Below are positions 14,920 through 19,961 of a stretch of DNA of 23,047 bases, piece by piece. This stretch comes from a virus. The position numbers were made by a program, and so were the translations under genes. How positions within the stretch are numbered: the stretch's first letter is position 1; every line of letters starts with the position of its first letter. Location of the stretch: the IMG/VR virus record IMGVR_UViG_3300027747_003235, positions 1-23,047 of that record; one strand, written 5' to 3'. The notes under the pieces are model-generated. The model saw only the letters and a program-made list of their open reading frames with translations, searched no databases and was not told where the DNA came from.

Positions 14920-14945
14920 TGTAGTCCTTTCTTTTTCAGATAACA

Positions 14946-14965
14946 AAGGCCCTTAAAAGAGCCTT
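14946..14965 (-). terminator. Hairpin downstream of the tmRNA, probable terminator
   Basis: Minus strand AAGGCTC, loop TTTTAA, GGGCCTT (7 bp with one G-U pair), followed by TGTT. It would end the tmRNA transcript. The 5' strand may also pair with the acceptor piece in the mature tmRNA. Confidence 0.6.
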
Positions 14966-14971
14966 GATTAT

Positions 14972-14979
14972 TATTTATA
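14972..14979 (-). promoter_or_regulatory. T4-type late promoter box for SleB and ClpP-like genes
   Basis: Minus-strand TATAAATA, 53 nt before ATG 14919. It sits inside the 3' end of the tmRNA coding piece, so the late transcript would start near 14966 and begin with the tmRNA terminator hairpin. Confidence 0.65.
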
Positions 14980-15031
14980 TAATGGTTGGTTATTCTGTTA
15001 CGAGGAAACCAACCGAAACCCTAAGCGGCGT

Positions 15032-15064
15032 TTAGGCTGCTAATGCGAACTGTGAGTCGTTTGC
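15032..15064 (-). other. tmRNA tag reading frame (ANDSQFALAA, stop)
   Basis: GCA resume codon at 15064-15062, then nine codons and TAA at 15034-15032. With the charged alanine the tag would read AANDSQFALAA, close to the common AANDENYALAA. The ALAA end is the ClpX/ClpP degradation signal. Confidence 0.9.
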
Positions 15065-15151
15065 GTTTACTTATTTTGCTTGATTTGCGGTCATCGCCTA
15101 CCGTGTTGCCGTCTCTAATATCTCTCGCTGTCGAATACTGAGTACACCCCC

Positions 15152-15227
15152 ATCAAAAGCACTCTCAAATCTGAATAGTACGGAGTTGGTGACCGTATCT
15201 CTTGGGACTCAAACCCACGAATGCTTT
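15152..15227 (-). other. tmRNA intervening segment removed during maturation
   Basis: Joins the acceptor piece to the coding piece. The ends pair as AAAGCATTC with GAGTGCTTT (9 bp with one G-U), and inside are two further hairpins (GGG/CCC with TTTGAGT loop; ACGG/CCGT). Such closed loops mark the part excised in two-piece tmRNAs. Confidence 0.75.
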
Positions 15228-15299
15228 TGGTGGAGGTGGGGGGATTTGCACCCCCGTCCAACAAGCCTTCTCTTTGAAGGGATTACAACAATTAAATTA

Positions 15300-15329
15300 A
15301 TTATATACTAAAAACGAATTAATGTATAC
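15300..15329 (-). promoter_or_regulatory. Repeated phage promoter, copy 4 (tmRNA)
   Basis: Minus strand: GTATAC (15329-15324), 18-bp spacer ATTAATTCGTTTTTAGTA, TATAAT (15305-15300). Same spacing and near-identical spacer core (TAATTCGT) as the other three copies; it lies just ahead of the tmRNA acceptor piece. Confidence 0.7.
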
Positions 15330-19310: not shown

Positions 19311-19961
19311 TTAATGATTTTTAAGTTTAGAATAATCTTGTCGCAGATTAACAAATTCTTGAATCCATGTATCACGCTTCTCTATAAAGATTAAAGGATC
19401 ACTATCATCAACTGACATGATGATCACCAATCTATCTACAGGAATTCCGGTTCTTTCCTCAAACATAACGGCGTATGCCGAAGTCTGCATGAAGTATCCA
19501 TGAATGTCATCTCGTGACTTTACTCGTTTAGACGTTTTAAAATCAATAATAGATAGTCTACCATCAAATTCTGCAATACAGTCTACAGTACCAGCAACTT
19601 GCAAGTGATCAGAATAGAGTTGTGTCTCAAGACAGTGAACATTATTAATTCTATTTAAGTGAGGTTTAATAGAATTAAATACTTCTAAATCAAAAGGTGT
19701 AGGATTGACTTCTTTGTTGAGTAGATAATCTTCGCAGAGCGAGTGTATAGCAGTACCTCGTCTTGCTGCTCGTGAAGAGATTCGATTTGCTTCTTCTTCT
19801 CCAACTGCTTTACGCCAGGCCATGATTTCTGCTTTTCCAAGCAGTCCAAGGACTGACGTAACGGAGGGATACTTTCTACCACTAGGTGTCTCGTAGCGTC
19901 GACCTTCGGGAGAATCAACGCGTACGAGTTTTTCAATGTTATGATGTATGTGATTAAACAA
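19311..19961 (-). CDS. PD-(D/E)XK superfamily exonuclease
   Basis: Probable RecB/Cas4-like or MGME1-like DNA exonuclease of 216 residues. Motifs in order: YPSVTSVLGLL (31-41), RRGTAIHSLCEDYL (67-80, motif I region with His73), ETQLYS (Glu112), GTVDCIAEFDGRLSIIDFKT (124-143, catalytic Asp127 and the D-x-K pair Asp140/Lys142), and MQTSAYAVMFEE (QxxxY motif, 158-169). All expected residues are present. The frame opens with TTG 19961 and no in-frame ATG follows until residue 47, so a TTG start overlapping the PhoH stop by 8 nt is the best choice. It is probably co-expressed with PhoH and used in host DNA breakdown or recombination; the substrate is not visible from sequence. Confidence 0.83.
   Translation of the reverse strand: MFNHIHHNIEKLVRVDSPEGRRYETPSGRKYPSVTSVLGLLGKAEIMAWRKAVGEEEANRISSRAARRGTAIHSLCEDYLLNKEVNPTPFDLEVFNSIKPHLNRINNVHCLETQLYSDHLQVAGTVDCIAEFDGRLSIIDFKTSKRVKSRDDIHGYFMQTSAYAVMFEERTGIPVDRLVIIMSVDDSDPLIFIEKRDTWIQEFVNLRQDYSKLKNH

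Follow-up and report, generated by a model that had tools for sequence, protein, structure and literature searches.

A phage-encoded permuted tmRNA gene and predicted protein-gene cassettes in the intervening sequences of its relatives

The tmRNA gene and its neighbors

The window analyzed here is a stretch of 23,047 nucleotides of viral DNA (IMG/VR record IMGVR_UViG_3300027747_003235). By direct reading and by searches with Rfam covariance models we found a complete, circularly permuted tmRNA gene on its minus strand, at positions 15290-14984. The gene matches the beta_tmRNA model RF01850 with 146.3 bits (E = 2.8e-45; gathering score 84) and the tmRNA_permuted model RF04321 with 130.5 bits (E = 1e-25; gathering score 47). 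The original prediction, of a phage-encoded permuted two-piece tmRNA with the tag ANDSQFALAA at positions 14966-15285, is thus borne out by significant covariance-model matches, and all of the parts it described are present; only its upper limit falls short, as the RF04321 match reaches 15290 and the RF01850 match, which includes a 5' leader, reaches 15342. It had also suggested a search with the alpha_tmRNA model (RF01849), which is not the best description: the alpha score of 63.8 bits is above the cut-off of 50, yet 82 bits under that of the beta model. A one-piece tmRNA (RF00023) is ruled out by the acceptor-first order and by the permuted models being the reported matches.

The acceptor piece, or tRNA-like 3' piece (15290-15228; RF04321 positions 1-63), consists of the 5' half of P2, the T arm GGGGG-TGCAAAT-CCCCC (15255-15239, also recovered by the covariance model), the acceptor 3' strand CACCTCC (15238-15232), the discriminator A (15231) and an encoded CCA (15230-15228). 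After an intervening sequence of 76 nt (15227-15152), which reading, pairing and folding indicate to be RNA-only, the coding piece (15151-14984) begins with the acceptor 5' strand GGGGGTG (15151-15145) and continues through the conserved TTCGAC segment, the 3' half of P2, a pseudoknot-1 region, the tag frame and a 3' terminal hairpin, GGTTGGTT...AACCAACC, with the conserved loop CCTCGTAACAGAA (15014-14984). On sequence reading, the ends that had been predicted for the two pieces, 15228 at the CCA and 15151 at the 5' end of the coding piece, are exact. All seven pairs of the acceptor stem form, including the G3-U70 pair of alanine identity. The tag frame (15064-15032) reads GCA AAC GAC TCA CAG TTC GCA TTA GCA GCC TAA, giving ANDSQFALAA and a stop; it is in frame, with an alanine resume codon and an alanine-rich C terminus. 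The fold of the acceptor piece, spacer and 5' end of the coding piece beats all 200 of 200 shuffled sequences (z = -3.67). ARAGORN also calls a permuted tmRNA (14930-15320), but it reads the tag frame wrongly as DDRKSSKISKRKRLTVRISSLNAA, a frame that we rejected because it lacks an ALAA end and ignores the resume region. On these features of the sequence, what the minus strand carries is very probably a functional tmRNA gene of the phage, permuted, in two pieces and of beta type.

Just upstream of the gene is a sigma-70-like promoter, TATACA-17-TATAAT (15328-15300; 10/12 matches), a weak signal with 12 such sites against 8.3 in shuffles. Downstream, on the same strand, are genes for a cell-wall hydrolase (Hydrolase_2, SleB-like; 14922-14398; PF07486, 2.5e-23), a ClpP-type protease subunit (14398-13733; phrog_1827, 1.7e-65; PF00574, 6.9e-10, passing the cut-off) and tRNA-Arg (tct) (13704-13630; ARAGORN and covariance search). 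The clpP start is therefore about 0.6 kb downstream of the tmRNA, beyond the hydrolase gene. The gap after the tmRNA holds a box resembling a T4-type late promoter, TATAAATA (14979-14972; also weak, with 6 in the window against 4.2 by chance), and a predicted intrinsic-terminator-like hairpin (14965-14946), and since both lie between the tmRNA and clpP we do not claim a joint transcript. In the ClpP protein, the residues of the catalytic triad, Ser94, His117 and Asp166, are invariant in 10 homologs and aligned with solved ClpP; a monomer model of moderate confidence (pLDDT 73.9) retrieves ClpP, and also SppA, in a fold search. On the other side of the tmRNA, three consecutive repeat proteins of about 315 amino acids with GYGGDKAIFGYG... 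repeats are encoded at 19269-16406 (minus strand); the one that we searched has no match in Pfam or PHROGs, and they are possibly tail-associated.

The intervening sequence and its cassettes

In the window tmRNA, the two ends of the spacer (AAAGCATTC and GAGTGCTTT) pair over 9 bp, in a helix stacked on the acceptor stem, and are followed by TGAT and then the coding piece. We rejected coding potential in this spacer, whose longest frame is 17 codons from a GTG without a Shine-Dalgarno sequence. To see how general the paired ends are, we turned to loci retrieved from metagenomic contigs through the tag, a non-random sample in which counts are lower bounds, as they are in our cassette scans: at least 100 such loci have both pieces matched, with spacers of 20-382 nt, 68 of them distinct. 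Nearly all of the 68 have complementary ends (mean 9.9 bp, compared to 3.1 bp when shuffled). Swapping ends between loci reduces the mean to 5.1 bp, which shows that the two ends of a spacer are matched to each other.

Many of the longer spacers appear to contain a protein gene. Under a strict rule demanding a Shine-Dalgarno sequence, a start codon, a frame covering at least 75% of the spacer and a stop codon at the junction, 12 of 44 qualify among the distinct spacers that are 70 nt or longer, compared to a mean of 0.2 and a maximum of 2 in shuffles. A scan with the cassette 5' end TCCACCATAAGGARRTTT recovered at least 97 tmRNAs with a matching coding piece; their spacers, 74 of which are distinct, measure 100-415 nt. 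With few exceptions the distinct spacers have an ORF preceded by the AAGGA in the 5' arm, and most stop at a TGA one base before the coding piece; the scan selects for 5' ends bearing a Shine-Dalgarno sequence, but neither the stop nor the frame length is selected for. The products include a thioredoxin (locus L309, 28-539; PF00085, 4.1e-21), an IscU protein (L387, 1309-1895; PF01592, 3.3e-55) and, in the group of L118, an Oxidored-like domain (PF09791, 2.1e-10). Other cassettes (L106, L298, L348 and more) encode proteins of 29-133 amino acids in unassigned families; they too have fixed ends that form a helix, and a single base separates their stop from the coding piece. The RF04321 match spans the cassette at L309, L387, L348, L298, L118, L050 and other loci.

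Six cassette families have pN/pS ratios of 0.10-0.38, indicating purifying selection, and three further families, with ratios of 0.80-1.12, are too little diverged to be informative. One and the same cassette can turn up in tmRNAs that differ in tag and acceptor stem (ANDSQFALAA in L016 and ANDSAYRLAA in L337, for instance), which fits the expectation for an exchangeable slot. With great confidence, though from comparison of sequences, we interpret the intervening sequence in the family of the window tmRNA as a slot that houses protein genes, the window copy being RNA-only.

Some loci depart from the simple arrangement. The 376-nt spacer of L092 has two tandem cassettes, each with a TAAGGAAGTTT start and a TTTCTTTA-type end. 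In L118, L034 and L050 (also L018, L089 and L009) the Oxidored-like frame (PF09791) has no start inside the spacer; its sole in-frame ATG is 56 nt upstream, in the tRNA-like piece, and the frame crosses the spacer into the coding piece. A strand of the L118 type may be both tmRNA and mRNA.

We found no published report of protein genes in tmRNA intervening sequences in the literature that we searched. A PHROGs search of ten cassette proteins gave no match, and a 123-residue cassette protein is in none of the isolated phages searched. In the portion of the tmRNA database paper drawn on here (PMC11915505), a tRNA-Ala gene or a repetitive element is reported inside the intervening sequence of permuted tmRNAs, and a protein gene there is not mentioned. 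Those cases are alike in having foreign sequence within the intervening sequence, but it is a tRNA or a repeat, whereas the relatives of the window have protein genes with fixed cassette ends.

Relatives, ClpP and the question of the host

The 28-nt tag DNA of the window has exact matches in at least 119 IMG/VR contigs. Among the matches listed, related tags include ANDAQFALAA, ANDEMFALAA, ANDTLYALAA, ANDSVYALAA and ANEERFALAA, in which the termini AND (or ANE) and (F/Y)ALAA are constant and the middle is variable. We found no mention of ANDSQFALAA in the literature searched for the tag. Divergence of the tmRNA is correlated with that of the single-stranded DNA-binding protein SSB (Mantel r = 0.27, P = 0.0005, n = 54), and the tmRNA appears to be inherited partly vertically and partly by exchange. 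Two kinds of rearrangement were seen in individual relatives. In L140 (1231-1674, minus strand), a GIY-YIG-type ORF (PF01541, 3.4e-05) on the opposite strand splits the coding piece in the region of the tag; a new tag end (AANDSRFALAA) comes with the insertion, and the old tag tail remains downstream. In L137 (4853-4897; also in L016 and L138), the tmRNA 3' hairpin recurs beyond the small gene that follows, a pattern that would fit insertion of this gene together with a duplicated tmRNA 3' end.

Where a ClpP is near these tmRNAs, it is mostly downstream. Among the matches listed for tag-centered loci, 21 of 67 have one no more than 3.5 kb downstream and 1 of 45 has one upstream; in every case it shares the strand of the tmRNA. 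We also examined loci retrieved through SSB and not through the tmRNA. The tmRNA is upstream of SSB in 19 of the 29 relatives with enough flank, and clpP lies between the two in all 13 loci with a close tmRNA (>100 bits), a count that is weakened by the common ancestry of the loci; the link is positional. In the same sample clpP is present in 2 of 10 loci without a detected tmRNA and in 0 of 6 with a distant one. SmpB is absent from the 19 related virus records that we searched, the largest of 180 kb, and host SmpB is therefore probably needed.

The closest isolate by SSB is Pelagibacter phage Mosig (52.6%), which has a two-piece ssrA (PMC9004378). The gene order in Mosig is PD-(D/E)XK nuclease, ORF, ssrA, gp33, ThyX, gp59 and SSB, and that in the window is nuclease (19311-19961), repeat proteins, two ORFs, tmRNA, hydrolase, ClpP, small ORFs, helicase loader and SSB. 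The Mosig tmRNA scores best under the alpha model (67.6 bits). A phage lineage related to the Kyanoviridae therefore holds differing tmRNA types at a corresponding place.

An alphaproteobacterial host had been proposed for the window phage, and is not supported, because the tmRNA scores 146.3 bits with the beta model against 63.8 with the alpha model. The type of a tmRNA is in any case an unreliable marker of the host, since the Methylophilales phage Melnitz has an alpha-type two-piece ssrA (PMC9004378). A betaproteobacterial link is possible, judging from the beta type; the top-ranked phage relatives of the thioredoxin cassette protein are Limnohabitans and Curvibacter phages. The only contig from a bacterial genome that matched in a search with the same tag (L122, 43-1131) was placed in the bin of a Lake Erken bacterium with a small genome; on it a permuted tmRNA with the tag ANDTQFALAA, tRNAs and clpP follow one another. 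It is probably a phage contig misbinned in that genome, and genomes related to the bin mostly lack a permuted tmRNA, so we make no host call from it.

Among isolated phages, only Pseudomonas SM1-like phages have DNA close to the window tmRNA, in short matches. The P. aeruginosa phage SM1 itself (KU245542; L121, 1504-1803) carries an unannotated permuted tmRNA (RF04321, 118.6 bits), with phoH about 1.2 kb upstream; it resembles the window gene in being permuted and differs in its tag, ANDTSFDVRLAA. Six further records of Pseudomonas phages contain DNA similar to the window tmRNA by BLAST. Bacteria of the genus Pseudomonas have a one-piece tmRNA.

Interpretation and comparison with known tmRNAs

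If the gene works as its parts suggest, host RNase P would cut the precursor before G15151 and tRNA 3'-processing enzymes would cut it at the CCA (15228), leaving two pieces held together by pairing in the acceptor stem and P2. With AlaRS, EF-Tu and SmpB of the host, the RNA would then be loaded on ribosomes stalled at broken mRNAs, which are to be expected during host takeover; the ribosomes would be freed, and products ending in ANDSQFALAA would be destroyed by ClpXP-type proteases, probably assisted by the phage's own ClpP. The intervening sequence would be a removable segment that tolerates cargo, RNA-only in the window and whole genes in relatives. The complementary cassette ends, 5' TAAGGAAGTTT with the Shine-Dalgarno sequence and 3' TTTCTTTATGAT with the stop codon, would rebuild the processing helix, and one transcript would mature into the two pieces of the tmRNA plus a short mRNA that has a single base past its stop codon. 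It is speculative that such an excised mRNA terminates poorly and is a preferred substrate for trans-translation, feeding back on tmRNA activity. It is likewise speculative that the window tmRNA and the phage ClpP form a tag-and-degrade module and that this ClpP docks to ClpX. The reading as a whole, which combines the gene-cassette slot, coupled expression of the cargo and the tag-and-degrade module, we offer as tentative, and would sooner expect to see parts of it revised than not.

The tmRNA could instead be a passenger, a bacterial ssrA gained by transduction or left as the remnant of an attachment site, that does nothing for infection. Integration at ssrA is known (PMC9004378), phages are mosaic, and the co-divergence of tmRNA and SSB is just moderate, but the window proteins scanned with PHROGs include no integrase match, the RNA is complete, its gene order is common to many relatives and Mosig, and paired spacer ends and tag termini are retained over many diverged copies, so that we consider a passenger improbable. 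We give slightly less credence still to a decoy or competitor, an RNA that would block or replace trans-translation by the host and add no degradation. It has a precedent in mycobacteriophage DS6A, whose RNA, consisting of the tRNA-like part only, inhibits the endogenous tmRNA (PMC4131195, and the consulted part of PMC11915505); against it, clpP is nearby, and the window and its relatives keep a full tag frame, conserved tag termini and a stop codon, which a decoy would not require.

More serious, with a probability that we place somewhat below even, is the explanation that ClpP is next to the tmRNA by coincidence of a conserved gene order, for example as a protease for head maturation or host takeover; what is at issue here is the module and not the tmRNA. 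Gene order is conserved in these myoviruses, many PHROG matches of the window ClpP are head-maturation proteases, and the distant tmRNA-bearing relatives lack clpP. Yet two divergent ClpP subfamilies (A and B) occupy the slot between tmRNA and SSB, clpP is about 0.4 kb from the tag in other arrangements (L055, L070 and L078), and L122 joins tmRNA, tRNAs and clpP with another tag.

If the tmRNA is functional, this group of phages supplies ribosome rescue and tagging itself, and probably a protease too, and would recycle ribosomes and amino acids out of translation that has stalled in the host. Protein genes housed in a structured RNA gene, within the segment that maturation removes, would be an unusual device for packing a genome, and the slot offers a direct handle on the reason for permutation in tmRNA genes and on the purpose of the intervening sequence. 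Annotation that treats a tmRNA as a single non-coding feature may miss ORFs in intervening sequences.

Phage tmRNAs are mostly one-piece, as had been supposed, but two-piece ones are not new: a survey of 402 phages yielded 133 unique tmRNA structures, of which 53 are two-piece and mainly from marine or aquatic phages (PMC9004378), and the tmRNA database paper, in the portion used here, counts 79 unique phage sequences (PMC11915505). Taken singly, the window copy adds one more phage two-piece tmRNA to those already published; what is new is the family around it and not the window gene alone. The one-piece tmRNAs of cluster C mycobacteriophages and Bacillus phage G, and the DS6A RNA, are phage-encoded like that of the window but are not permuted, and the DS6A RNA, unlike the window tmRNA, is without a tag frame. 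The ssrA genes of Melnitz and Mosig are closer, being, like the window copy, permuted tmRNAs borne by T4-like phages, and that of Mosig is in a matching neighborhood, from the PD-(D/E)XK nuclease to gp59/SSB; no clpP is annotated near it in the genome region that we examined, and it is of alpha type with another tag, whereas the window tmRNA is of beta type. With the tmRNAs of RF01850 and RF04321 the window copy shares the order of acceptor piece, intervening sequence and coding piece, G3-U70, the encoded CCA, P2 pairing between the pieces and an ALAA tag. It differs from them in being phage-encoded, and in having relatives that house protein genes in the intervening sequence.
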